A DNA stretch of 64,000 bases, from positions 3,144,664-3,208,663 of the forward strand of contig CP030158.1 in NCBI GenBank assembly GCA_003285105.1. Direction: 5' to 3'. The number at the start of each line of letters is the position of its first letter. The first letter of the stretch is position 1. The translations under genes and the position numbers were made by a program. The DNA is from Roseithermus sacchariphilus (GTDB taxonomy: Bacteria; Bacteroidota; Rhodothermia; Rhodothermales; MEBIC09517). Below the pieces are notes generated by a model that saw only the letters and a program-made list of their open reading frames with translations, did not search any database and was not told the origin of the DNA. Below are positions 47,833 to 64,000 of the stretch, piece by piece.

Positions 47833-50736
47833 TCAGTTCTCCGTGGACGCCGGGGCCGCATCCGGTAGCAACACCGCCCGGACGTAGCGCGTCGTGTCCA
47901 GATAGGTGCGAGCGGCCTGCCGGATGTCTTCGGGCGTCAGCGAGGCAATGAGCTCCTCGTAGCGCAGCACGTCCAGCAGGTCCTCGTTCTCGTGCGAGTA
48001 GTAGAAGTCGAGGACGCTCAGCCAGAAGCCGTTCGTCTCCCGCTGCGTCTCCCGCTCGCGGCGCTGCTGTTCCTTCACCTTCGCCACGTCGTCCGGCGAC
48101 GGGCCCTCCGTCTTGAGGCGGTCGATCTGTTCGAAGACGGCCTGCACCAGCTCATCGACGCGATCGGGGTCGGTCGTGAAGCTGATGGTGAGGCTGTACG
48201 TGGAGTCCGGGCGGTCCGAGGTCGAGGGGCGCACGCTGACGCCGTAGACGCCGCCGCGCTCCTCCCGCAATTCCTCCCGCAGCCGGATGTTCAGGACCTC
48301 GGCCAGGGAGCGGAGGCGGTGGCGGTGCAGGCGGTCATAGACGAACGGCCCGTGGAAGTAGAGCAGCACCTGGCTCCGGTCGGCCAGGCCCTTGCGCACC
48401 GTCTTCTGGATCACCCCGTCCGGCAGGTCCGGTACGACGTCCCGCCAGGTTTCCTGCCGCCCGGAGGCCGGGAGCGAGCCGAGGTAGGACTGCGCCAGTT
48501 GGATCAGGCGGTCCACGTCGAAGGCGCCCACGAAGACGAACGTGAAGTCGCTCAGGTCGGCGAAGCGGTCCCGATAGACGGCCTCCGCTTCCCGGAGGTC
48601 GAAGGCCTGGATCTCGGAGAGCGTCGGCACGCGGCGGCGGAGGTGGTTGCCGTAGAGCGCGGCGTTCAGCGTGTCCTCCAGCGCGGCGCTCGGGGTGGCG
48701 GAGCGGTTGGCCAGGTACGCGCCGATCTGCTGCTGGAAGACCGCCAGGGCCGAGCTGTCGGCGCGCGGCTGCGTGACGTAGAGGTAGATGAGCTGGAAGA
48801 GCGTTTCGAGGTCCTCCGGCGATCCGCCGCCGTTGAAGCCCTCCTCCAGCTCGCCGATGTAGGGGGCGACGGATACCACCTTGCCGGCCAGGTGCTTCTC
48901 CAGCTGCGTCCGGTCGAAGGGGCCGACGCCACTCTGCGTGATGATCGTCGGGGCGAAGTCGGCTTCCAGGTACGCTTCGTCGCCGACGAGGGACGAGCCC
49001 CCGGGGCTGAAGGCGGTGAAGCGCACCTCGTCTTCCTTGAAGTCGGTCGGCTTCAGCACCAGCCGGATGCCGTTGGCCAGGCGGACCTCGGTGACGCCGA
49101 CCTCCGGGATCTCACGGCGTTCGACGACGGGTGCCGGAGGCGGGACCTCGGCCACCAGGGGCTGGTCGGAGACGGCGTCTTCGTAGGGGTCGATGGCGCG
49201 GGCGTCGACCGTCTGGAAGACGCCGGCCAGGTCGGCCTCGCTCGGGGGGGGCAGGTCGGGCTTCTCCGGCATGACGACCGTCACCACGCGGTTGCGCTCG
49301 GCCAGGAGGTCGGCTGCGCGCGCGTTGAGTTCGTCCAGCGTGATGGTAGACGCGTAGCGCCGTACCAGGTCGAACTCGTAGGCGATGCCGGGGATGGGCT
49401 CGCGCTCCAGGTAGTGGGCCACGTACTCACGGGCGTAGGCGGCCGAGTTGGTGGTGTTGCGCTCGTTGTAGGCCCGCTGGTAGGCGCGGACGATCTCCTG
49501 CTGCTGCCGGGCCAGCTCCGTCGCCGTGAAGCCATGCCGGCGGACGCGTTCGACCTCGGTCAGGAGGGCTTCCAGTCCGGTCAGGATGCCGCCGTCCTGC
49601 ACCTGCGCGCCGATGCTGTAGAAGGCCGCAGGGCGGGCGATGGCGCCGCGCGAGACGGCGGCGCCCAGGAACGGCGCATCCGGCCGGCGGGCGATCTCCG
49701 CGAGGCGGTTGTTGAGCATGTCGTTGAAGAACTGCCCGACCAGCATCCGCCGGTAGTCGTGCACCGTCGCCAGCGTGTCTGCCGGTTGCTTGTAGACGAC
49801 CTGCACCGTCGAGTAGGGATACTCGGGGTCGGTGACGATGGCATAGAGGGTTTCCTCGTGGCCGGGCACGTCGAAGTGCGGCCGGGCCGGGGCGTCGGCC
49901 GGGGCCGGGAGGGTGCTGAAATGCGTGCGGATGAGCGCCTCGGCCCGGTCCACGTCCAGGTCGCCGACGACCACGACGGCCATCAGGTCGGGGCGGTACC
50001 AGGTCCGGTAGAAGCGCTGGAAGGCGGCCGGGGGGGCGTGGCGGATCACCGTCGTGTCCCCGATGGGCAGGCGCTCCCGGTAGCGGGAGCCGTGCAGCAG
50101 CGCGGGCAGGGTCTTCTCCCGGATCCGCCCGGAGGCATTCTGATCCCGCAGCCGCCACTCCTCGATGATCACGCCGCGTTCCTTCTCGATCTCCTCGGGG
50201 TCCAGCGTGGCATAGGCCGCCCAGTCTTCCAGCACGTCAAAGGCCTTCTCGACGATGTCCGTGCTGTCGGTCGGAATCGTCAGCATGTAGACGGTTTCGT
50301 CGAACGACGTATAGGCGTTCACGTCCGGGCCGAAACGCATGCCCGTTCGCTCCAGGAAGTTGACGAGTTCCTGTTTCTCGAAACGGCGGGTGCCGTTGAA
50401 GAGCATGTGTTCGAGGAAGTGAGCCAGGCCGCGCTGGTCGTCGTCCTCCAGGACGGAGCCGGCGTTGACGGCGAGGCGCAGTTCGGCCCGGTTGTCAGGC
50501 TCGGCATTGTGCCGGATGTAATAGGTCAGCCCGTTCTCCAGCCGTCCCACCCGGACGGCGGCCTCGACGGGCAGCGGGGCATCGAGGTCCAGGGACGCCG
50601 CATCGGCGGGCGGCACGCTCTCGGTGCGAAGTGCCGCGGAGGGGGACGTGGACGTCGTGGGATGCGTACGCTCGGCCGAGGCGCACGCACCGATCAGCAG
50701 CGCGAGAAGGAGCGGGAAGAGACGAAGACGATGCAT
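47833..50736 (-). CDS. M16 zinc metallopeptidase, two-domain lipoprotein
   Basis: 967 residues with lipobox LIGAC (C18). The inverted zinc motif HxxEH is complete in the N-terminal half as HFLEH (H106, E109, H110), and the distal Glu is in ERGVIIEEW (E192/E193). The C-terminal half (about 530-960) repeats the M16 fold without the zinc motif, typical for pitrilysin-like proteins in which the second half builds the chamber. It should degrade peptides in the periplasm. The stop lies 35 bases before the thioesterase gene. A small membrane protein gene lies upstream on the same strand. Confidence 0.94.
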   Translation of the reverse strand: MHRLRLFPLLLALLIGACASAERTHPTTSTSPSAALRTESVPPADAASLDLDAPLPVEAAVRVGRLENGLTYYIRHNAEPDNRAELRLAVNAGSVLEDDDQRGLAHFLEHMLFNGTRRFEKQELVNFLERTGMRFGPDVNAYTSFDETVYMLTIPTDSTDIVEKAFDVLEDWAAYATLDPEEIEKERGVIIEEWRLRDQNASGRIREKTLPALLHGSRYRERLPIGDTTVIRHAPPAAFQRFYRTWYRPDLMAVVVVGDLDVDRAEALIRTHFSTLPAPADAPARPHFDVPGHEETLYAIVTDPEYPYSTVQVVYKQPADTLATVHDYRRMLVGQFFNDMLNNRLAEIARRPDAPFLGAAVSRGAIARPAAFYSIGAQVQDGGILTGLEALLTEVERVRRHGFTATELARQQQEIVRAYQRAYNERNTTNSAAYAREYVAHYLEREPIPGIAYEFDLVRRYASTITLDELNARAADLLAERNRVVTVVMPEKPDLPPPSEADLAGVFQTVDARAIDPYEDAVSDQPLVAEVPPPAPVVERREIPEVGVTEVRLANGIRLVLKPTDFKEDEVRFTAFSPGGSSLVGDEAYLEADFAPTIITQSGVGPFDRTQLEKHLAGKVVSVAPYIGELEEGFNGGGSPEDLETLFQLIYLYVTQPRADSSALAVFQQQIGAYLANRSATPSAALEDTLNAALYGNHLRRRVPTLSEIQAFDLREAEAVYRDRFADLSDFTFVFVGAFDVDRLIQLAQSYLGSLPASGRQETWRDVVPDLPDGVIQKTVRKGLADRSQVLLYFHGPFVYDRLHRHRLRSLAEVLNIRLREELREERGGVYGVSVRPSTSDRPDSTYSLTISFTTDPDRVDELVQAVFEQIDRLKTEGPSPDDVAKVKEQQRRERETQRETNGFWLSVLDFYYSHENEDLLDVLRYEELIASLTPEDIRQAARTYLDTTRYVRAVLLPDAAPASTEN

Positions 50737-50838
50737 GACAGCGCGATGCGTGGACGGGACGGAGCAAGGCGTACGCCCGAGCCTCGGATGGGTTTACGCC
50801 GCGGGACGAAAGGGCCGCCGGATCGGCCCCGGCAGGGG

Positions 50839-51102
50839 TCACCCCTTGCGCTTGCCGCTGGCCGGCGACAGGTCGATCAGCACCGCGATCACCATGACGA
50901 CGATCTGCAGCGTGCCCCACTCTCCACCGTAGACGTTGTGTACGACGGAGTACCAGAGCAGCGTGGTGGGAGCGAAGATAAAGCCCAGGATGGGCCAGAG
51001 CAGGCTCGAAAAAAGGCCGGCGAACCAGTCCGTGAACAGCCAGAGCACGACGGTCAGCACACGCGGGGCGAGGAGGGCGATGACGGCGAACAGGCAGGGC
51101 AT
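50839..51102 (-). CDS. Small membrane protein, conserved-looking hypothetical
   Basis: 87 residues with three hydrophobic stretches: about 4-24 (LFAVIALLAPRVLTVVLWLF), about 29-53 (LFSSLLWPILGFIFAPTTLL) and about 62-77 (LQIVVMVIAVLIDL). Features such as FTDWFAG, YGGEWG and a basic end (SGKRKG) suggest a defined membrane protein rather than chance. I recall similar short proteins in Actinobacteria and Bacteroidota but cannot name a family. It is followed on the same strand, after 102 bases, by the M16 peptidase. Confidence 0.65.
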   Translation of the reverse strand: MPCLFAVIALLAPRVLTVVLWLFTDWFAGLFSSLLWPILGFIFAPTTLLWYSVVHNVYGGEWGTLQIVVMVIAVLIDLSPASGKRKG

Positions 51103-52890: not shown

Positions 52891-53907
52891 GTGGAAGATT
52901 TTCTGCGACAGCACCTCACCGATCGGGTGGTGATCGCGCTTCTGTTCGAAGAGGCGATCACGGTGGAGGACGTGCGCCGTGCCTGGGAGGCCTGGGAACG
53001 CAGCGGAGATGGTGGTCGCCGCCCTCCGCTGTGGCGGGTGCTGGCCCAACAGCCCGGCATCGACGTGGAGGCCGTCCGGGCGGCCGCGGCACGGGCCTAC
53101 GGCTTCGCGCAGGCGGACATCTCCCCCTATGCCACGCTGGCCTTCCTGGAGATGCACGCCTACCAGTTCTCCAGCGCCCAGTGGGAGCGCATGATCGAGC
53201 TGTGTGTGCTGCCGGTGGCGCAGCGTCTGCCCCAGGTGAGCAGCGGCGGCAACTGCTGGGTGTTCGCCACCTGCGATCCGCTCCGCCCCGAGGTGCATGC
53301 GTTCCTCGAAGCCATGAAGCAGGATCGCTTCGAGCTGGTCTATGCACCGGAGTCGAAGCTCGTGACGCTGTTTACCCTCCTGTTTGCGCCCGACGACGAG
53401 GAACTGACGCGGGAGGTCCCGACGCTGCTCCAGGACCGGCTCCCGGAGGATCCTTCGCCGGCGCCCCGGCCCGAGGGGCCGGCCAGGACGCTCACCTTCG
53501 GCGAATACCTCGAGTGGTTGCTCGAACGCGCCGTCGGATCGCCGGGGGAGCCGCTGATCGTGCAGGACGACGGCGGAGGGTGGACGCAGGTGATCCTTCC
53601 AGACGACGCCGCCGGGCAGCCCGATGACGCCGGGGTCCGCGTACGGCATGGGCCGTTCGTGCGCTACGTGCAGGAAACCCTTCTGGACGGGCACCCGGTG
53701 GCGGGTGAGGCCGCCCGGACCGTGCTGATCCAGCGGTGGCTGGAGGACGGCCTGCATCACTTCGAGATCCATCTGGACGCATCGCGGGGGGCAACGACCG
53801 GGGCCGCAGCGGATACATCGCCGGCACGCGGGGGGGCGGTGCTGCACATCCGGGCGGTGGACGTGGCGGCTCCGGCGTCGCCCCGGCCGGAGCGTGGGTT
53901 GCCTTAA
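52891..53907 (+). CDS. GspE/PilB N-terminal-domain protein lacking the ATPase domain
   Basis: 338 residues from a GTG start (EDFLRQHLTDRVVIALLF). Residues 1-165 are clearly homologous by eye to residues about 75-235 of the adjacent full-length ATPase: DRVVIALLF against DRVVIMLLY, PPLWRVLAQ against EPLWRLLAQ, and QDRFELVYAPES against LERFELKYAPES. Residues about 200-295 resemble the following N2-like region (TFGEYLEWLLERAV; LEDGLHHFEIHL). The frame then ends in a Pro/Ala tail with no Walker A, Walker B or zinc cysteines. It is therefore a partial paralogue, perhaps a regulator or stator-like partner of the pilus or secretion motor. It lies 127 bases upstream of that ATPase. Confidence 0.85.
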   Translation: MEDFLRQHLTDRVVIALLFEEAITVEDVRRAWEAWERSGDGGRRPPLWRVLAQQPGIDVEAVRAAAARAYGFAQADISPYATLAFLEMHAYQFSSAQWERMIELCVLPVAQRLPQVSSGGNCWVFATCDPLRPEVHAFLEAMKQDRFELVYAPESKLVTLFTLLFAPDDEELTREVPTLLQDRLPEDPSPAPRPEGPARTLTFGEYLEWLLERAVGSPGEPLIVQDDGGGWTQVILPDDAAGQPDDAGVRVRHGPFVRYVQETLLDGHPVAGEAARTVLIQRWLEDGLHHFEIHLDASRGATTGAAADTSPARGGAVLHIRAVDVAAPASPRPERGLP

Positions 53908-54034
53908 GACGGAGGCCATCGCGTCGATACCGGATCTGGAGCCACGGGCGAGGCTGCCGGCCCGTCGCGTGCGCTCCTCCGAGCGACCCAGGTCTATGGT
54001 CCGCCCACGCCGGCGGACATAACCCCACCGGAGC

Positions 54035-56053
54035 ATGCACGACCAGGCTGATCCGTCCGTGTCCCTGTCTCCCGTCGTAGCCGACGAGGGAAACGGAGCG
54101 TCTGAAAAAAACACCCCGGCGCCGGCGGGGCCGCCGGTAGCTGCCGCGGCACGCCCGCGCAGAGGAGGAACCGCCGCGGGCACGAACCTGCTGGACGACC
54201 CGCAGGAGGGGGGGGACTTCGCGGACGAGGAGTCCGGTGAGAGCACGTTCTCGCCGCTCAACCTGCGGGACCGCGTCGTCATCATGCTGCTCTACTATGA
54301 GACGGTGCGGACGGAGCAGGTCGAGCAAGCCTGGTACCGGTGGGTGCAGCTGCGCAAAAAGGGCCACCGCGAGCCGCTCTGGCGGTTGCTCGCGCAGACG
54401 GAGGGCGTCGACCGGGAAACGGTCTTCAAGGTGGCGGCTCAGGTCTATGCCTTCGAGGAGGCCCTGATCAAAAAGCCGGAGGTCATCAAGCTGATCCGTG
54501 AGTTCTGCGAGACCTTCTCCGAGGAGCAGTGGGAGGAGCTGAGCCGCCTCAAGCTCATCCCGATCCGGCAGGAGCGGGACAGCGAAGGGACGTTGCGCCG
54601 GATGGAGTTCGCCACGCACGACCCCACCCGGCCCGAGCTGCATCGCCACCTGCAGCAGCTCAAGCTGGAGCGCTTCGAGCTGAAATATGCCCCGGAGTCG
54701 CTCGTGGAAACGCTGATCCAGGAGGCATCGCCACGGCGGAACGAGTTCCTCGATCGGATGAACGAGGACCCGATGGCCTTCGACCTGGGCACCAGCTACG
54801 AGGAGGATCGGGGGGAGCTCATCGACGAGGAAGCGCTGGAGGCGGAGATCAGCCGCTCCACCCTCATCAACCTCTTCGAGGCCACGCTCGTCGAGGCCGT
54901 CCGCCAGGGCGTCTCGGACGTGCACATCTTCCCCAATGCCGACCGCCAGATCGAGATTCACTTCCGCGTGGATGGGGAGTTGCGGCGGTGGCACGTCGAG
55001 GAGCGGGTGCACCCGGAAGCCTTCCTGGCCGTCGTCAAGGACAACTCGACCAACGTGGACCGCTTCGAGCGCGATGCGGCGCAGGACGGCTTCATCCAGC
55101 GACGGGTGGACGGGACGCTCATCCGCTTCCGCGTCTCGGTGCTGCCCATCGCCAATGCCAACCAGGAGGTCCGCTCCGAGAGCATCGTCATCCGGGTGCT
55201 GGACGACCGCAAGGTCATCACCGACCTGCGCAAGCTCGGCCTGCTGGACACGGCCCTGGAGCGCTTCGAGACGGCCATCCGGCAGCCCCACGGCATGATC
55301 ATCCTGACCGGCCCGACCGGCTCCGGGAAGACGACCACGCTGTTCGCCGCGCTCCACCAGGTCGTCTCTCCGAAGGTGAACGTGCTGACCGTGGAGGACC
55401 CGGTCGAGTACATCATCCCCGGCGTGCGGCAGATCAAGCTCAACCACAAGCTGGGCCTGGAGCAGGCCCTGCGCGCCATCCTCCGGCACGACCCGGACGT
55501 GGTCATGGTCGGCGAGATGCGCGACCGGGAAACGGCCGAGCTGGCCATCAAGCTGGCCAACACGGGGCACCTGACCTTCTCGACGCTCCACACGAACGAT
55601 GCCCCGAGCGCCGTCAGCCGGCTCTACAAGATGGGCGTCGAGCCGTTCCTGATCGCCTACGCCATCAACCTGGTCGTGGCGCAGCGGCTGCTGCGGACGC
55701 TCTGCCCGCGCTGCAAGCGGCCGGCCGAGGAGGTGGACGACCTGCTGCTCGAACGGCTCGGGTTTACGAAGGACGAGATCGACGGCCTGACGCTGTACGA
55801 AGCCGGTCGGGATCCCTCGTGCCCCACCTGCCGGGGTGTCGGCTACAAGGGCCGCCGCGCCATCACGGAAACCATGCTCTTCTCGAAAGAGATTCGCCGG
55901 ATGATCGTCTCGGCCAAGGACATGATCGACGAGGATCAGCTGCGCGAGCAGGCGGTCAGGGAGGGGATGCTGACGCTCCGGGCGGCGGCCCGTGAGGTGG
56001 TTAAGCAGGGCGAGACGTCCATCGAGGAGCTCGTGCGCGTGACGGCGGGTTAG
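54035..56053 (+). CDS. GspE/PilB-type secretion/pilus assembly ATPase
   Basis: 672 residues. After a low-complexity acidic start, a T2SSE_N-like domain covers about 75-235 and an N2 domain about 275-390. The C-terminal RecA-like motor has Walker A GPTGSGKT (426-433), an Asp box (TVEDPVEYIIPGVRQ), Walker B near DPDVVMVGEMRD (486-497), and a His box (STLHTNDAPSA). Four zinc cysteines are C557, C560, C596 and C599. It powers type II secretion or type IV pilus extension; which one cannot be told, since no pilin, GspD or PilC gene is in the window. It overlaps the convergent histidine kinase gene by 4 bases. Confidence 0.95.
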   Translation: MHDQADPSVSLSPVVADEGNGASEKNTPAPAGPPVAAAARPRRGGTAAGTNLLDDPQEGGDFADEESGESTFSPLNLRDRVVIMLLYYETVRTEQVEQAWYRWVQLRKKGHREPLWRLLAQTEGVDRETVFKVAAQVYAFEEALIKKPEVIKLIREFCETFSEEQWEELSRLKLIPIRQERDSEGTLRRMEFATHDPTRPELHRHLQQLKLERFELKYAPESLVETLIQEASPRRNEFLDRMNEDPMAFDLGTSYEEDRGELIDEEALEAEISRSTLINLFEATLVEAVRQGVSDVHIFPNADRQIEIHFRVDGELRRWHVEERVHPEAFLAVVKDNSTNVDRFERDAAQDGFIQRRVDGTLIRFRVSVLPIANANQEVRSESIVIRVLDDRKVITDLRKLGLLDTALERFETAIRQPHGMIILTGPTGSGKTTTLFAALHQVVSPKVNVLTVEDPVEYIIPGVRQIKLNHKLGLEQALRAILRHDPDVVMVGEMRDRETAELAIKLANTGHLTFSTLHTNDAPSAVSRLYKMGVEPFLIAYAINLVVAQRLLRTLCPRCKRPAEEVDDLLLERLGFTKDEIDGLTLYEAGRDPSCPTCRGVGYKGRRAITETMLFSKEIRRMIVSAKDMIDEDQLREQAVREGMLTLRAAAREVVKQGETSIEELVRVTAG

Positions 56054-59000
56054 CCTGAGCCGGTGGCTGCCGGCGCGGCGGCGCCTCCGGCGTACCGGGA
56101 GCGCCGGGCGGTCAGTTCGTTCAGCATGGCCCGCAGGGCGGCCCCGATCGCCTCGATCTCCTCCCGTACCCGGTCGGCGTCGATGGCCTCGGGCTCCCGG
56201 CGGCGCACATGGGCCTCCAGGCCCTGGATGCGTTCGAGGAGCCGCACCGCACCGAACATCCCGACGGCCGACTTCATCTTGTGCGCCGCGAAGCCGACGC
56301 GCTCCCAGTCTGAGGCGGTGCCGGCTTCCTGCAGCGCGTCGAACTGCTCGGGCATCACCTTCAGGAACAGGTCGATCATCCGGACGACCCGCTCGGGTTT
56401 GCCGAAGGCGTTGGCCTCTACCTGTGCCATGTCGATCAGCCCCTCGGGCGCGGCGGGCTGGGCCTCGCCCGAAGCGTCGGGTGGCGTAGCGCCGGACGCC
56501 GAGGGGGATGCCGCGGGAGGCGAGGTGCGGCGGAGGTGGGCGGCCAGCGTGCGCTGGAGGTGGCGGGGGACGAAGGGTTTGGTGAGAAAGCCGTTCATGC
56601 CGGCTTCGAGCACCTCGGCGCGCCGCTCCGAGAGGGCCGAGGCCGTCAGCGCCAGGATGGGCAGGTCGGGGTCGACGCCGGGCAGCGCGCGGATGCGTCG
56701 GGTGGCCTCCAGGCCGTCCATCTCGGGCATGCGGATGTCCATCAGGATCACGTCGTAGCGGCTCTGGCGGACCTTGTCGACGGCGATCCGGCCGTTGTCG
56801 GCCAGGTCCACCTCCAGTCCCCAGCGCTCCAGCACGCCCCGCGCGACCATCTGGTTGAAGGGGTTGTCTTCCACCACCAGCACGCGCTTGCCCGACAGGT
56901 CCGGCAGCGCGTCCGGCTCGGCGTCGGCGGCGTGGGGAGGCACGGCGGGGCCTGCGGCCTGTGCGGCCCGTCCGAACGGCAGGGTGACGATGAAGGTGGA
57001 GCCGGCTCCCGGCGTGCTCTCCAGCGTGATCGCCCCGTCCTGCATCTCCACGAGCTGTTTCACGATGGCCAGGCCGAGCCCCGTGCCGCCGTAGGTGCGG
57101 GTGACGTCCGTCGCGCCCTGCGCGAACGTCTCGAAGATGGTCTCCTGGCGCTCCGGCTCGATGCCGATGCCGGTATCCTCGACGACGAAATCCAGCCGGA
57201 TCGTCGTGGGGTCGGCGGGTGCCGTGGCCGCGCGGCGCACCGTGACGTGGACGTGTCCTTTCTGGGTGAACTTGAGGGCGTTGCCCACGAGGTTCATCAG
57301 GATCTGATTGAGCCGCACCCGATCCCCCACGAGGTCGTTCGGCACGTCGTCGGCCACACGGACGGCCAGGTCCAGGCCTTTCTCCTGTGCGCGGAAGCGG
57401 AACATGGTTTCCAGCCCCTGGGCCAGGTCGCGCAGGTGGAACGGCTCGGCCTCGAACTCGATTTTGCCGGCGTTGATCTTGGACAGGTCCAGGACGTCGT
57501 TGATCAGAGCCAGCAGATTGTCGGCGGAGAAGCTGATGGCCTCCAGGTACTGCCGCTGGGCGTCCGTGGGGTGGGTGTCCAGCAGCAGGTTCGTCATGCC
57601 GATGACCGCGTTGAGCGGCGTGCGGATCTCATGGCTCATGTTCGCCAGGAACTGCTCCTTCAGGCGGGTCGACTCTTCGGCCAGGGTTTTGGCCTCGCGG
57701 AGGGCTTCTTCGGCTTCCTTGCGCTCGGTGATGTCGAGCCCGTAGGCCAGCACCTGATCGACCTCGCCGTCCGGTCCGAAGAGGGGCGTGAGGAACCGGG
57801 CGACGTGGCGGGGCCCGTCCGGGGTCGTGGTGGTTTCCTCGAAGGCGACGGTGCGCCGTTCCTCGATGCACTGCCGGAGCAGGTGCTGCCGCCGGGCGAT
57901 GCCGGCTTCGTCGAGGCCCTGGGCGGCGGGGTATCCGGCGTCGGTCTGGCCGAGGAGGGCCTGGCGGTGCCGCGCGTCCGGGGCGTAGCTGGGGTTGACG
58001 TAGCGGTAGCGCCCCCCGGTGTCCAGCACGGCCAGCTGGACGGGCATCGTCTCCAGGATCTGCTCATAGAAGAGCTTGAGGCGCTGAATCTCGGCCTCCA
58101 CGCGCTTGCGCTCGGTGATGTCGCGGAAGGCGCTGAGGTAGAGCGGCTGGCCTTTCTGGTAGATCTGAGCGGTGGAGACCAGGAGCGTCCGGCGGGAGCC
58201 GTCCCGGGCGCGGATGGTGGTTTCGGCGTTGCGGACGTGCGTGCCCCGGTGGATGGCCTCGATGCGAACGCGTTCGTCGGGGTCGGAGGCGGCCTCCGGG
58301 TAGAGCCGCAGGAGGAAGCCGGGCTGGTTGGCCTCGTCGCTCGTGTAGCCCGTGATCTCCTGCATCTTCGAGTTGAAGATGATGAAGTGACCGTCCGCGG
58401 TGCTCAGCGTGATGCCGTCCTCGACGGTTTCGATGACGGTGAAGAGCCGGATGACGCTTTCCTGAAGGGCCAGCTGGGCTTCCTTGCGCTCGGTGACGTC
58501 CCGCACGATGGCCTGCACGAGGGGCTGGGCGAGGGTGTCGACGAGGCTGGCGGAAACCTCGGCGGTGAAGCGGGAGCCGTCGCGGCGCTGGAAGGGGATC
58601 TCGTACGCCATGAAGCCGTCGGCCAGGACGCTTTCCCAGGCGTAGGTGACCAGGTCGTGGGCCTCGGCCGGGTGCAGCGCCTTCACGTGCGCCGGCAGCG
58701 CCGCCTCGTCGGGGTAGCCCAGCATGGCCAGGCCCCGGCGGTTGCACGTCACCGGGCGGCCGTCCGTGTCGAAGACCAGGATGCCGTCGTTGGCGTGCTG
58801 GAAGAGGCTGCTGAATTGCGCCTCGCGGTCCCGGTGGTGGGCCTCGGCGATGCGCCGGCGGGCGGCCTCCTCCTGCAGGTGCTGGTGGGCGAGGCACCCT
58901 TCCAGGGCGATGGCAAAGCGGTCCACGACGGGGACGAGGAGGTCCGGGGCGGGCAGGGCCTCCCCGGGGGCGGCCAGGAGGTGCAGGAGCCCCAGGTCCC

Positions 59001-59376
59001 GCAGCCGGAACAAGAAGATCGTGCCGTCCGTGGCGGCAAAGGGCGCCGCGGCGGCGGCGTACGCGTCCTCCTCCGGCATCAGCCGCCGGTGCGGTTGTCC
59101 GTAGGTCAGCAGCGATTGCAGCGTCCGGTTCGGGATGCCGGGCGGGGTCTGCAGCGCATCAGGACGCGCGCAGACGGGGAGCAGGCCTGTGTCGTCGGTG
59201 TCGGGGTGTAGCCGCGCGGCCGCGATCCACACCGCGGCGCGGACGGCGGGCAGGTGGGTGAGCAGGGCATCCAGAAAGCCGGTGCAGGCGTCGGTGAGGT
59301 CCAGGCTGCGACCGGCGGCGAGAGCCAGTTCGTAGAGGCGGGTTCCGGTGTCGGTGGGGGAGTCGGGCGGCACCAT
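56050..59376 (-). CDS. Hybrid sensor histidine kinase with GAF-like region, three PAS, receiver and Hpt domains
   Basis: 1108 residues from MVPPDSPTDTGTRLYEL. No membrane helices, so cytoplasmic. A GAF-like region (about 10-175) is followed by PAS domains at about 190-300, 305-425 and 430-555. The HisKA phosphosite is H582 in NMSHEIRTPLNAVIG. ATP lid motifs are NLVGNALKF, DTGIGI and GGTGLGL (about 695-768). A receiver (830-945) has the acceptor D880 in ILMDIRMPEMDG and K933 in LTKPF. A Hpt domain has H1032 in AHKMKSAVGMFGA. The protein can run a phosphorelay but the output regulator is not adjacent. The signal is unknown. Confidence 0.95.
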   Translation of the reverse strand: MVPPDSPTDTGTRLYELALAAGRSLDLTDACTGFLDALLTHLPAVRAAVWIAAARLHPDTDDTGLLPVCARPDALQTPPGIPNRTLQSLLTYGQPHRRLMPEEDAYAAAAAPFAATDGTIFLFRLRDLGLLHLLAAPGEALPAPDLLVPVVDRFAIALEGCLAHQHLQEEAARRRIAEAHHRDREAQFSSLFQHANDGILVFDTDGRPVTCNRRGLAMLGYPDEAALPAHVKALHPAEAHDLVTYAWESVLADGFMAYEIPFQRRDGSRFTAEVSASLVDTLAQPLVQAIVRDVTERKEAQLALQESVIRLFTVIETVEDGITLSTADGHFIIFNSKMQEITGYTSDEANQPGFLLRLYPEAASDPDERVRIEAIHRGTHVRNAETTIRARDGSRRTLLVSTAQIYQKGQPLYLSAFRDITERKRVEAEIQRLKLFYEQILETMPVQLAVLDTGGRYRYVNPSYAPDARHRQALLGQTDAGYPAAQGLDEAGIARRQHLLRQCIEERRTVAFEETTTTPDGPRHVARFLTPLFGPDGEVDQVLAYGLDITERKEAEEALREAKTLAEESTRLKEQFLANMSHEIRTPLNAVIGMTNLLLDTHPTDAQRQYLEAISFSADNLLALINDVLDLSKINAGKIEFEAEPFHLRDLAQGLETMFRFRAQEKGLDLAVRVADDVPNDLVGDRVRLNQILMNLVGNALKFTQKGHVHVTVRRAATAPADPTTIRLDFVVEDTGIGIEPERQETIFETFAQGATDVTRTYGGTGLGLAIVKQLVEMQDGAITLESTPGAGSTFIVTLPFGRAAQAAGPAVPPHAADAEPDALPDLSGKRVLVVEDNPFNQMVARGVLERWGLEVDLADNGRIAVDKVRQSRYDVILMDIRMPEMDGLEATRRIRALPGVDPDLPILALTASALSERRAEVLEAGMNGFLTKPFVPRHLQRTLAAHLRRTSPPAASPSASGATPPDASGEAQPAAPEGLIDMAQVEANAFGKPERVVRMIDLFLKVMPEQFDALQEAGTASDWERVGFAAHKMKSAVGMFGAVRLLERIQGLEAHVRRREPEAIDADRVREEIEAIGAALRAMLNELTARRSRYAGGAAAPAATGSG

Positions 59377-59536
59377 GGAGGTCCGGAGACGAAAGCAGGG
59401 GGACGCGGAGGCCGTCGCGGGGCGCATCGCGGCGCCGCGCGATCGGGCCACCCGGATCGCTCCGCAAAAACGTTGCCGAACCGGCCGTGGGATGCCCTGC
59501 GGGACCGTTGCCCGCCCCCTCCGCCCGGCCGAGGCG

Positions 59537-62350
59537 TCAACCGGTGCTCTGCATGGCCGCTGCGATGCCGTTGATGCTGAGGAACAGCGCCCGGCGCAGC
59601 GACGGCCGCTCCGCCTCCGGCGCCTGGCGGTAGCGGCGCAGCAGCTCCATCTGCAGCAGGTTGAGCACGTCGGTGTACGGGTTCCGCAGCGTGATGGACT
59701 TCTGGATCACCGGGTTGATGTCCAGCAAGTTCTCCTGCTCCGTGATGCGGAGGAGGGCATCCCGGGCCCGCTCGAAGTCGGCGGCGATGAGGTCATGGAT
59801 GGGGGAGGCGTGTCCGTTGGCATCGGCGAGCCGGGCATAGCGCGAGGCAATGGGCAGCCGGGCGCGGGCCATCTCCCGCTGGGCGTTGTTCACCACGGCC
59901 CGGAAGAAGTGCCAGGAGCGGTACATGGCGCGGAGCTGATCCAGCGTGCCGGGTTCGCCGTCGATCAGCGCCTGCAGCGCCTCCCCGATGCCGAACCAGC
60001 CGGGGACGTTGTAGCGCGTCTGCGTCCAGGCAAAGACCCATGGGATCGCCCGCAGGCTCTCGAAGTCCACCTCCCCACCGGTCTTGCGAGAGACCGGCCG
60101 GGAGGCGATGGGGAGGCGGCTGATGTGCTCGATCGGGGTGGCCTTCGTATACCAGGGCCAGAAGCGCGGGTCCTCGATCAGGCGACGGTAGGCGGCCATC
60201 GACCGGTCGGCGATGCGATCCATGAGGGCGTGCTCGGGGGCGCCCTCGGCCACGGGAACCGCCTCGTCGCCGTCGTAGGGGCGGCTGGTGGCGCGGATCA
60301 TGGCATTGACGATCTGCTCGACGTGCCGCCGGGCGATGTCGGAGAGGGCGTAGCGGAACGAGATCACCTCGCCCTGTTCCGTGAAGCGGATGCGGCCGCT
60401 CTGGCAGGCTGAGGGCATGGAGAGGATGGCCTGGTTGGCCCGTCCGCCGCCGCGCCCGACCGTGCCGCCGCGCCCGTGGAAGAGGCGAAAGTCGATGCCG
60501 TGCCGGCGGCAGACGCGACCGAGGCGGTCCTGGGCCTGGTGCAGCGCCCAGTTCGCCATCCAGTAGCCCCCGTCCTTGTTGCTGTCCGAATAGCCGAGCA
60601 TCATCTCCTGGAACTGCTCGCGCGCGGCGAGGTGACGCCGGTAGATCGGATGCGTGAAGAGCCGTTCCATGAAGGCGTCCGCCTCGGCCAGGTCTTCGAT
60701 GGTCTCGAAGAGCGGCACGAAGTCGATCGGGCAGTGGACGGTGTCCCCGTCCATCCGCCAGATGCCGGCTTCTTTGGCCAGCAGCATGACCTCGAGCACG
60801 TCGCTGACCTCGTGCGTCATGCTGATGATGTAGCTGCCGATGGAGAGCGGCTCGTGCGCGACGGCCTCCCGGATGACGGCCAGCGTGTCCATCACGGAGC
60901 GGGCCGGTTCGGGCAGGTCGGTGCCGCGGGGCACGAGGGGGCGCGGGTTGGCCAGCTCGGCCGACAGCACCCGCTGCCGCTCGGCCTCCGGCAGGGCGCC
61001 GTAGTCGTTCGTGACGCCGGCGAGCCGCAGCAGCGTCGCCACCACCTCCTCGTGGACGCGGCTGTGCTGGCGTACGTCCAGCGCCATCATGTGGAAGCCG
61101 AAGGTCTGCGCCTGGACGAGCAGGTCCGAGAGCGGCCCGGAGTGGGCGACCTCGCCGAGGCCGCAGTCATCCAGGCAACGGCGGATCAGGCGCAGGTCGG
61201 CGATGAAGTCGGCGCTGTTGTAGGCCTCGGCGGGGGAGGCAGCGGCGGAGGCGTCCAGCCGGGCACGCAGCCGCTCCAGCCGGGCGATGAGGTAGCTCAG
61301 CTTGAGGCGGAAGGGCTCGTGCTGGTACTGGCGCAGTCGGATGGGCTCGAGCGCAATCACCGCGGCGTCGGCCTCGATCGACGCCCGCAACGCGTCCGGG
61401 ACGGGCACCTGCTGGTCGGACACGCTCAGCTCCCGGCGGAGGTCGCGCAGGGCGGCCAGGTAGAGCTCCAGCGCGGTGCGCCGCTGCACGAGCAGCGTGT
61501 GGCGCGTCACGGCCGGGGTCACGTTGGGGTTGCCGTCCCGGTCGCTGCCGATCCAGGAGCGATAGCGCAGGAAGACGGGAAACTCCACACGGGCATCGTA
61601 ATACTGCGCCAGGGCCTGCTGGACGTCCCGGTAGATGCGGGGGATGGTGTTCCAGATGGTGTGGCGGACGAAGTACAGGCCGTGCTCCACCTCGTCCTCG
61701 ACGTGCAGGCGCTCGGGGCGGACTTCGTCGGTGGCGAGCAGCAGGCGGATCTGGTTGCGCGTCTCGGCGAGGATGCGGTCAGTTTCTTCCGGGGTGGGCT
61801 TTCCGTAGCGCAGGGTGTGCAGCAGCGCGGCGATGCGTTGCTGCTTGAAGAGGATGCTGCGGCGGCGCGCCTCGGTGGGATGCGCGGTCAGGGTGGGCTG
61901 GATGTCCAGGCGGCGCAGCAGCGCCAGCACATCGTCCAGCGAGGCGCCCTGCTGCTTGAGGGTGTGGATGGCCTCGGCGATGGATTCCGGGCGCGGGGCG
62001 TCCGGGCTGCTATGGAGGGCCCGCTCGCGGTTGATGCGGATGATCTCCTGCTGTTCGGCCTTGTTGATGAGGTGGAACAGGGCCGTGTAGCCGCGCAGCA
62101 GCCAGGTGATGGTTTCCAGGTCGAGCGGGCGGATACGGTGGGCTACTTCGGCGAAGGCGGAGGCGATCCGATCCGGCTCGGCGTCCCGGCAGAGCCGCCG
62201 CAGTTCGATCACGAGGTCGAAGACGTCCGGCCCGGCCTGCTCGCGGAGGGCCTCGCCCAGCATGCCCCCCAGGAGCGCAATGTGTTCGCTCAGGGGGGCG
62301 CTGATGCCGGCCTGACGGGTTTCTTCTTGCAGCGTCTGGGGGGTGCTCAT
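59537..62350 (-). CDS. ppc: Phosphoenolpyruvate carboxylase
   Basis: 937 residues, the normal bacterial length. Catalytic H157 is in LTAHPTEARRRSIL. The second signature GYSDSNKDGGYW and the flexible loop FHGRGGTVGRGGG are present, and the C-terminus ends NGIAAAMQSTG with the conserved terminal glycine. The enzyme fixes bicarbonate onto PEP to refill oxaloacetate. RSWIGSDRDGNPNVTP confirms the family. It appears to be transcribed alone; 174 bases separate its start from the upstream DUF2911 terminator side. Allosteric control by aspartate or acetyl-CoA is usual for the family, but I did not check the sites. Confidence 0.97.
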   Translation of the reverse strand: MSTPQTLQEETRQAGISAPLSEHIALLGGMLGEALREQAGPDVFDLVIELRRLCRDAEPDRIASAFAEVAHRIRPLDLETITWLLRGYTALFHLINKAEQQEIIRINRERALHSSPDAPRPESIAEAIHTLKQQGASLDDVLALLRRLDIQPTLTAHPTEARRRSILFKQQRIAALLHTLRYGKPTPEETDRILAETRNQIRLLLATDEVRPERLHVEDEVEHGLYFVRHTIWNTIPRIYRDVQQALAQYYDARVEFPVFLRYRSWIGSDRDGNPNVTPAVTRHTLLVQRRTALELYLAALRDLRRELSVSDQQVPVPDALRASIEADAAVIALEPIRLRQYQHEPFRLKLSYLIARLERLRARLDASAAASPAEAYNSADFIADLRLIRRCLDDCGLGEVAHSGPLSDLLVQAQTFGFHMMALDVRQHSRVHEEVVATLLRLAGVTNDYGALPEAERQRVLSAELANPRPLVPRGTDLPEPARSVMDTLAVIREAVAHEPLSIGSYIISMTHEVSDVLEVMLLAKEAGIWRMDGDTVHCPIDFVPLFETIEDLAEADAFMERLFTHPIYRRHLAAREQFQEMMLGYSDSNKDGGYWMANWALHQAQDRLGRVCRRHGIDFRLFHGRGGTVGRGGGRANQAILSMPSACQSGRIRFTEQGEVISFRYALSDIARRHVEQIVNAMIRATSRPYDGDEAVPVAEGAPEHALMDRIADRSMAAYRRLIEDPRFWPWYTKATPIEHISRLPIASRPVSRKTGGEVDFESLRAIPWVFAWTQTRYNVPGWFGIGEALQALIDGEPGTLDQLRAMYRSWHFFRAVVNNAQREMARARLPIASRYARLADANGHASPIHDLIAADFERARDALLRITEQENLLDINPVIQKSITLRNPYTDVLNLLQMELLRRYRQAPEAERPSLRRALFLSINGIAAAMQSTG

Positions 62351-62463
62351 GGAGTTCGAGGGGTCGGAATCGAGCGGGTGGAAGGAGCGGGTGTGAACGG
62401 GAATCCGCTTCGGGGGCGCGGAGGCGTCCCTGTCAAACTACTAACGCCGGAGGAACCGGTGCA

Positions 62464-62502
62464 AAAAGAGAAGCGCCGATCCCGCAGGGGAACCGGCGCT
62501 TC
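62464..62502 (-). terminator. Rho-independent terminator after DUF2911 gene
   Basis: GAAGCGCCG (62470-62478) pairs perfectly with CGGCGCTTC (62494-62502). The minus-strand exit reads CTTTTTGC. It lies 23 bases past the DUF2911 stop. Confidence 0.85.
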
Positions 62503-62525
62503 GCTGGAAGGAGGCGGGCGGCGGC

Positions 62526-63104
62526 TCACTGCGCCTGAACGGGGAGCGCGACGCGCGTCTGTCCCCACGTCATCGTGAGGTACGTCTGGCCGTTGCGATC
62601 CTCGAAGGAGATCGTGAAGGCCTCGTGATCCTGGTCGATGGTTTCCGCCGGAGCCGTCACGCGCAGCACGTCCTGCGAGGCATCGTAGCTGTAGGCGCCC
62701 CACTGGCCGAGGCCGCTGTTGAAGATCACGGTCCAGGTGTCGGGGCCGGGGATGGTAAAGACGGCATAGGTGCCGGCCGGAAGCGTCTCGCCGCCGACCG
62801 TCAGGTCGCCGGTGGTGGTGAGTTCGGTCGCCTCGTTGGCGCCGGTGCGCCAGACGGTGCCGTAGGGCACCAGGGCGCCGGCGTCTTCGGGGCCGAAGAG
62901 GGTGCGTCCCTTCTTGCGCGGGGATCCGTAGACGACCTTCACGTACGTGTCGCCCAGCATGGTCTGGGCCATGGCGAGCGGGCTGGGTCGAGGATCGGGC
63001 GGCGGCACGTGCTCCTGGGCGGCACTCGTCAGCGGGATCGAGGCGCAGAGCAGCGCAGCCACCAGCAGGGTGCTACGCAGAACAGGCAGAGTCAGGGATC
63101 GCAT
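62526..63104 (-). CDS. DUF2911 domain protein, exported
   Basis: 192 residues with a signal peptide (hydrophobic 12-26, cleavage near SAAQ). The DUF2911 core is present: VKVVYGSPRKKGRTLFG, YGTVWRTGANEATELTT, LPAGTYAVFTIPG and WTVIFNSG. The family is frequent in Bacteroidota, is predicted to be beta-rich and has no assigned function. It lies 102 bases downstream of the DUF6503 lipoprotein on the same strand and has its own terminator, so the two may form a short envelope operon. Confidence 0.9.
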   Translation of the reverse strand: MRSLTLPVLRSTLLVAALLCASIPLTSAAQEHVPPPDPRPSPLAMAQTMLGDTYVKVVYGSPRKKGRTLFGPEDAGALVPYGTVWRTGANEATELTTTGDLTVGGETLPAGTYAVFTIPGPDTWTVIFNSGLGQWGAYSYDASQDVLRVTAPAETIDQDHEAFTISFEDRNGQTYLTMTWGQTRVALPVQAQ

Positions 63105-63206
63105 GGTTCGAGAGGTCCGGTTGGGGGAGGGAAAGATGGGCGTTGAAAGCGAGAGGGCGGCCCGGGTTTCCTCCGGGGGCGTCCGGCGCTCCGCCTCGGG
63201 CGGTGG

Positions 63207-63980
63207 TCAGGGGGTCAGGGGACGGACCTCGATGTGCTCGAGACGGATCTCCGAGACGGGCTCCAGGCTGTCGGCCTCCATCAGCGTGTCGTAGCGCTCG
63301 ATGGGCGTGCCGGGGCCCGGCAGAGCAGGACTGGTGTAGTTCAGGTAGTCGGCAAAGCGGACGCCGCCGACGGTGCGCACGTTGACGGCCTGGCGAAAGC
63401 GGGTGCCGCCTCCGTTGACGTGGAAGTCGTAGGCCAGGTAGTCCATGGTGCCGTGCCGCCGGTGGAACCAGTAGACGAACCGGTCCTCGTAGTCCCGCCC
63501 GCCGCCTTCCGGGCGGAAGGTGACCTCGACCTCGTGGTACGGCTCTCCGCCGATGGTGGAGGGGCCGAGGTAGCGTTTGCGCACGGCCGGGTCGTTGAGC
63601 GGGAAGGGCAGCAGGGCAAAGTAGATGACCGAGTTGACCCCGGACTCGACGGCGGCGGCTTCTTCTTCCGTGAGCGGGACGCGGAGGCCGTCTACCTCCC
63701 GGTACAGGCCGTCGTTGGTGAGCACGTCGTGGACCTGATGCAGGGTGTCGGTCCCGAGCGAGTCGGTCATCCAGCGCTCATAGGAGAAGCGCCCGCCCTG
63801 GCGCCAGGCCCGGTAGCGGCGTCCGCGAAAGTCGAACGTGACCTCGGCGTGGGCCAGCACCGCCCCGCCGTGGACGGCGATGGCACGGTCGACGATGGCC
63901 TGCGGGTCGGGTTCGTCGTCGCAGGCGGCGAGCAGCAACATCGCCGGCAGGCAGAGCAGGAGGCCGGATGGAACGCGCAT
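63207..63980 (-). CDS. DUF6503 family lipoprotein
   Basis: 257 residues with lipobox LLAAC (Cys at about 20). After a short acidic linker (DDEPDPQ) the mature region has the family pattern: AIVDRAIAVHGG, EVTFDFRGRRYRAW, RFSYERWMTD, VNSVIYFALLPFPLND, and VEVTFRPEGGG with WFHRRHGTMDYLAYDF near the C-terminus. The fold is expected to be LolA/DUF4292-like beta-rich. Function unknown; an outer-membrane anchored binding protein is plausible. It is the last complete gene in the window, upstream of DUF2911. Confidence 0.8.
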   Translation of the reverse strand: MRVPSGLLLCLPAMLLLAACDDEPDPQAIVDRAIAVHGGAVLAHAEVTFDFRGRRYRAWRQGGRFSYERWMTDSLGTDTLHQVHDVLTNDGLYREVDGLRVPLTEEEAAAVESGVNSVIYFALLPFPLNDPAVRKRYLGPSTIGGEPYHEVEVTFRPEGGGRDYEDRFVYWFHRRHGTMDYLAYDFHVNGGGTRFRQAVNVRTVGGVRFADYLNYTSPALPGPGTPIERYDTLMEADSLEPVSEIRLEHIEVRPLTP

Positions 63981-64000
63981 GGCGTGAGGGGGGAAGGGAG

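Follow-up and report, generated by a model that had tools for sequence, protein, structure and literature searches.

The locus described here raises the question of what a PilB/GspE-type protein could do without its ATPase engine, and why it should be encoded directly ahead of a complete motor of the same family. The window, by which we mean the whole stretch of DNA analysed, comprises 64,000 nt of Roseithermus sacchariphilus (CP030158.1, 3,144,664–3,208,663, forward strand), and all coordinates given below are window-based. The short protein, P0001 (52891–53907, plus strand; 338 amino acids with an assumed GTG start), is composed of an N1 and an N2 domain and has no RecA domain. Its neighbour, P0002 (54035–56053, plus strand; 672 amino acids), is a full motor, with N1 at residues 79–224, N2 at 271–395 and RecA at 396–672. 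We tentatively favour a reading in which P0001 is an old, functional, ATPase-less N1–N2 paralogue and would be a trans-acting N-domain subunit of PilB-type motors, with a regulatory or accessory role.

Over 183 aligned positions, P0001 and P0002 share 39% identity in their N1 regions (E 3e-33), far above chance. P0002 carries all five motifs of the assembly ATPases (Walker A, Asp box, Walker B, His box and Zn motif), matches T2SSE with 347 bits over residues 274–668 and has PilB and GspE as its closest solved relatives; its Walker A motif, GPTGSGKT, was located by motif scan at residues 426–433 (55310–55333, plus strand). By contrast, the same five motifs are all absent from P0001, which is therefore a paralogue and not an assembly ATPase. 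The preliminary description of this DNA had likewise seen a first protein lacking the RecA domain and a complete second one.

An AlphaFold2 model of P0001, generated from the window sequence and the sequences of relatives, has a mean pLDDT of 79, with N1 mostly above 90, N2 mostly between 65 and 88, and a disordered linker. The N1 domain (residues 10–167; 52918–53391, plus strand), assigned by structural match, is GSPII/MshEN-like and lacks the c-di-GMP motif; using VIA-align, it superposes on the solved domains of MshE (5htl, Z 12.6), XpsE (2d28, Z 11.7) and PilB-N (7lko, Z 11.3). The N2 domain (residues 201–326; 53491–53868, plus strand) is degenerate in sequence and hardly recognizable as such (hhalign E 6e-4, probability 28%), yet its model matches the N2 domains of PilB and EpsE (5it5, Z 10.2; 1p9w, Z 10.0; 5tsh, Z 10.0). 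As modelled, P0001 thus keeps a complete N2 fold despite the degeneracy of its sequence. The earlier view that the N-terminal region and part of N2 had been retained holds for the N-terminal region; 'part', however, has to be replaced by the whole of N2 as a fold. The protein ends 12 residues past N2, at the point where RecA would be expected to start. Profile searches reveal little of this: P0001 scores 15.9 bits against the Pfam MshEN model, under the cut-off, and the same model run over the entire R. sacchariphilus genome gave zero N1 matches above threshold. NCBIfam and PDB sequence searches with P0001 returned no match.

The two genes are separated by 127 bp (53908–54034, plus strand), a gap too small to harbour a remnant of a RecA domain. 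A promoter scan of this gap gave no sigma-70-type match, in a phylum where such scans are uninformative; because no sigma-70-type promoter was found between them, the two genes are predicted from sequence to be probably co-transcribed. Downstream and convergent with P0002, overlapping it by 4 bp, lies a gene for a hybrid histidine kinase, identified by its domains (56050–59451, minus strand). The adjacency to this kinase, noted previously, is real, but the kinase is not a conserved neighbour: it is absent from this position in the syntenic loci of relatives, and we rejected it as the tandem's partner. The outer flanks, recognized by synteny, encode an M16-like protease (47833–50736) and an 87-amino-acid membrane protein (50839–51102) upstream (47833–51102, minus strand), and ppc, DUF2911 and DUF6503 genes downstream (59537–63998, minus strand).

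N1 matches are present in 76 of 114 Rhodothermales genomes. ATPase-less N1 or N1–N2 proteins, counted from the reading frames surrounding N1 matches, occur in at least 36 of the 114, spread over at least seven families, so that the short form is conserved; in at least 23 genomes it directly adjoins a motor, which answers the suggestion that the same tandem be sought elsewhere. The gaps between short form and motor are often 5–30 bp. The named relatives are all Bacteroidota metagenome-assembled genomes, several of them labelled Rhodothermales, Rhodothermia, Rhodothermaceae, Rhodothermus or Salinibacteraceae. Two shapes of short form are found: N1 only (n = 32), and N1 plus N2 (n = 9, P0001 among them), all nine of the latter stopping at the N2/RecA border. 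In families f2 and f5, the short form has no N2. None of the 41 short forms scanned contains a RecA-domain motif (Walker A, Walker B, Asp box, His box or Zn), and 36 of 37 motors have all catalytic and Zn motifs. In a set of 394 Bacteroidota genomes, all N1 matches listed from beyond the Rhodothermales lie in frames of motor length, at about 590 amino acids or longer. At one locus (L111 2476–5115, genome G082), two N1–N2 proteins are encoded one after the other next to a DUF4174 gene, and the stretch analysed there contains no motor.

The arrangement is embedded in a conserved gene order: M16 protease, 87-amino-acid membrane protein, short form, motor, ppc, DUF2911 and DUF6503. This block is found, variably complete, in families f1, f2, f5, f7, f11 and f13; the upstream flank is syntenic in L103, L106, L069, L073, L054 and other loci, and the downstream flank in L112, L114, L116, L117, L121, L056, L088, L069, L059 and others. 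In a tree of the N1 domain based on 146 columns, short forms cluster: 26 N1-only proteins share one side of a 99/92 branch, the N1–N2 forms are placed elsewhere and P0001 groups with f13 forms (92/67). P0002 falls outside the f2/f5 tandem-motor clade. The short-form/motor arrangement is thus conserved by position. On the same 146 columns, a single origin for all short forms is weakly rejected by the AU test (p 0.04). Judged from these alignments, the short forms may have arisen once or more than once, a single origin being weakly disfavoured.

Could P0001 instead be a relic, left by duplication and truncation and now being lost? Its divergence from P0002 and an N2 nearly unrecognizable by sequence would fit such a fate, as would the AU test, in which a sister relationship between P0001 and the N1 of P0002 is not rejected (p 0.18, 146 columns), so that an old lineage-specific duplication stays compatible with the data. 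Recent truncation as the source of P0001 is unsupported, and the ATPase is missing from the short homologues at this locus as well. Against decay stand conservation across the order, the domain-precise end, synteny, the confident N1 model and a coding GC pattern. In addition, dN/dS is 0.16–0.25 among related short forms and 0.04–0.11 among motors, in pairs drawn from relatives of P0001, which argues that the short form is not decaying; by this measure, the related short forms are under purifying selection and evolve faster than the motors. We consider the relic reading largely refuted and very improbable, and the earlier preference for function over decay is upheld.

A functional P0001 might be a stable structural subunit that caps or anchors P0002 in a hetero-oligomer. 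Such a role would suit the tandem order and its short gaps, and in solved PilB rings each N2 rests against the RecA domain of the adjoining subunit (PMC11656802), so that an N1–N2 protein would possess a possible docking face. However, the two partners have been lost independently (L116, L117 and L121 versus L070, L073, L088 and L090): three f13 genomes have a short form without an adjacent motor, and other genomes have a motor without a short form. This counts against an obligate hetero-complex. The highly degenerate N2 sequence of P0001 and the lack of N2 in the f2/f5 short forms also weigh against a structural role. We regard a structural subunit as rather unlikely.

The relation of the pair to pilus machinery bears on a further alternative, in which an orphan motor and its N-domain partner would form an ATP-dependent switch for a non-pilus process. 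No PilC, pilin or stator gene is located beside the tandem. The R. sacchariphilus genome encodes three motors of the PilB type. Its two PilC genes lie in pilus-type operons at 2.09 and 2.48 Mb, at a distance from the tandem at 3.20 Mb, and the two operons include genes for PilM-like proteins (L032 15248–17242 and L031 1177–2343); that the pair lies away from secretion genes had been recognized at the outset. In genome G058, which is nearly complete, PilC in the pilus operon (L123 9186–10791) is cut to 92 amino acids and the motor there has no N1 domains, whereas the short-form/motor tandem is intact elsewhere in the genome. This state may reflect a deletion or an assembly fault; unless the assembly is wrong, the pilus platform is perhaps dispensable for the tandem. 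A precedent for signalling by a PilB motor exists in Myxococcus xanthus, where PilB has such a role for exopolysaccharide (PMC5544727). However, N1 proteins and PilC strongly co-occur across the order (both in 71 genomes, only one of them in 5 and 4, neither in 34; Fisher p about 3e-19, for all N1 proteins including motors and not the short form alone), linking the wider N1 family to pilus machinery. The intact catalytic and Zn motifs of nearly all motors also weigh against a signalling pair, which we judge to be unlikely.

Other motors of the order handle N1 in ways that bear on the favoured reading of P0001 as a trans-acting N-domain subunit. R. sacchariphilus itself encodes a 1127-amino-acid motor with two N1 domains in the 2.48-Mb pilus operon (L032 7341–10724), and double-N1 PilB-type motors are found in other families (L045, L080, L081, L082, L083 and L119). 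The gene comes after those for pilin-like proteins and PilC in R. sacchariphilus and in other genomes. In the N1 tree, the first of the two N1 copies makes up a clade that is not sister to the short forms, a point that counts against the favoured reading, as do the independent losses and the state of G058. Their occurrence in the same genomes indicates that an extra N1 per motor is in use in these bacteria. In two f8 genomes (L047 4649–6588 and L048 6268–8363), a motor-like ATPase of about 435 amino acids, in which no N1 was detected, is immediately preceded by a short N1 gene. Taken together, the fused double-N1 motors and the split f8 arrangement suggest that N1 is a separable module in Rhodothermales.

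How might such a module act? The N1 of P0001 would bind the partners of motor N1 domains, either a stator of the PilM/GspL type or a motor's N1 ring, and would thereby control the engagement of the PilB motor with the pilus platform. Since it has no RecA domain, P0001 could neither hydrolyse ATP nor support productive hexamer closure, and would modulate rather than drive. The idea first proposed, that it may cap, anchor or regulate a motor, likewise stays an inference. A stand-alone MshEN domain sensing c-di-GMP on behalf of the motor would be another way to regulate it, and the N1 fold does match c-di-GMP-bound MshEN (Z 12.6). MshEN receptors, however, carry two 24-residue motifs of the RLGxx type (PMC5013675), and a relaxed form of the published motif was found in 0 of 42 motors and 0 of 43 other N1 proteins. 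With the motif missing from all 85 N1 proteins scanned, a role for c-di-GMP is highly improbable, and we rejected it.

A feature of the f2 and f5 short forms is their C terminus, which ends in Ala-Ala in 23 of 26 proteins, against 0 of 15 short forms elsewhere (the Ala-Ala forms are at L035, L036, L037–L044, L051–L057, L059, L060, L065, L069 and L071). The background is low: 10 of 302 neighbouring genes (3%) and 1 of 46 closed motors. The pair is preceded by Arg, Lys or Gln, the tail before it is mostly poorly conserved, and in the predicted model of one Ala-Ala short form the tail is unstructured. P0001 ends in ERGLP, without such a tail. In ssrA-type ClpXP degrons the crucial part is a terminal Ala-Ala (PMC7652416), a ClpX gene is present in all eight genomes checked, and within the order tmRNA tags have -AMAA as their last residues, except for one -AMTA (L094 808–1191, genome G052). 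By analogy, these observations suggest that the level of the f2/f5 short forms, P0001 excluded, is set by ClpXP-type proteolysis. A fuller version of the favoured reading, which we hold to be doubtful but possible, is that a dedicated motor-derived, ATPase-less N-domain protein controls Rhodothermales PilB-type motors by competing with or completing the N1 ring, and that an ssrA-like tail makes the f2/f5 forms short-lived, which would place a pilus or secretion motor under proteolytic control.

The closest precedent for such a tail is sigma-AntA, in which Ala-Ala ends 67 of 71 orthologues, a frequency comparable to that of the f2/f5 short forms, and proved to be a ClpXP degron (PMC7142297). 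Sigma-AntA is, however, a different protein, and degradation of the short forms is only predicted, with P0001 lacking the tail. With respect to architecture, P0001 has the same folds in the same order as the N1 and N2 domains of PilB/GspE (5htl, 2d28 and 7lko; 5tsh, 1p9w and 5it5) but lacks the RecA/C-terminal domain and the c-di-GMP motif. Thermus PilF also combines extra N1 domains with a PilB motor, and its GSPII-A does not bind c-di-GMP; there, however, three GSPII domains are in tandem in cis, an arrangement reported only from Deinococcus–Thermus, whereas the N1–N2 of P0001 is a separate protein (PMC11731258). PilZ and FimX resemble the proposed role of P0001 in that they act on PilB in trans, PilZ by binding PilB N1, but they have unrelated folds, whereas P0001 is itself a motor paralogue (PMC11656802, PMC8389850). 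Myxococcus PilB is a motor that acts beyond pilus assembly, in exopolysaccharide signalling, as the pair considered here might; an ATPase-less partner is not described in the accessible part of that account (PMC5544727). A literature search, largely without subscription journals, returned no description of a conserved ATPase-less N1–N2 paralogue paired with a motor. The folds, and motors with several N1 domains as in Thermus, are therefore known parts; for the pair of an ATPase-less N1–N2 protein and a motor that search gave no earlier account. What the N1 domain of PilB does is described as poorly understood (PMC11656802), and a natural, conserved, engine-less N1–N2 protein provides a ready-made probe for N1 binding partners. 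If proteolysis indeed sets the level of the short form in some lineages, it would constitute a new switch for a pilus or secretion motor.
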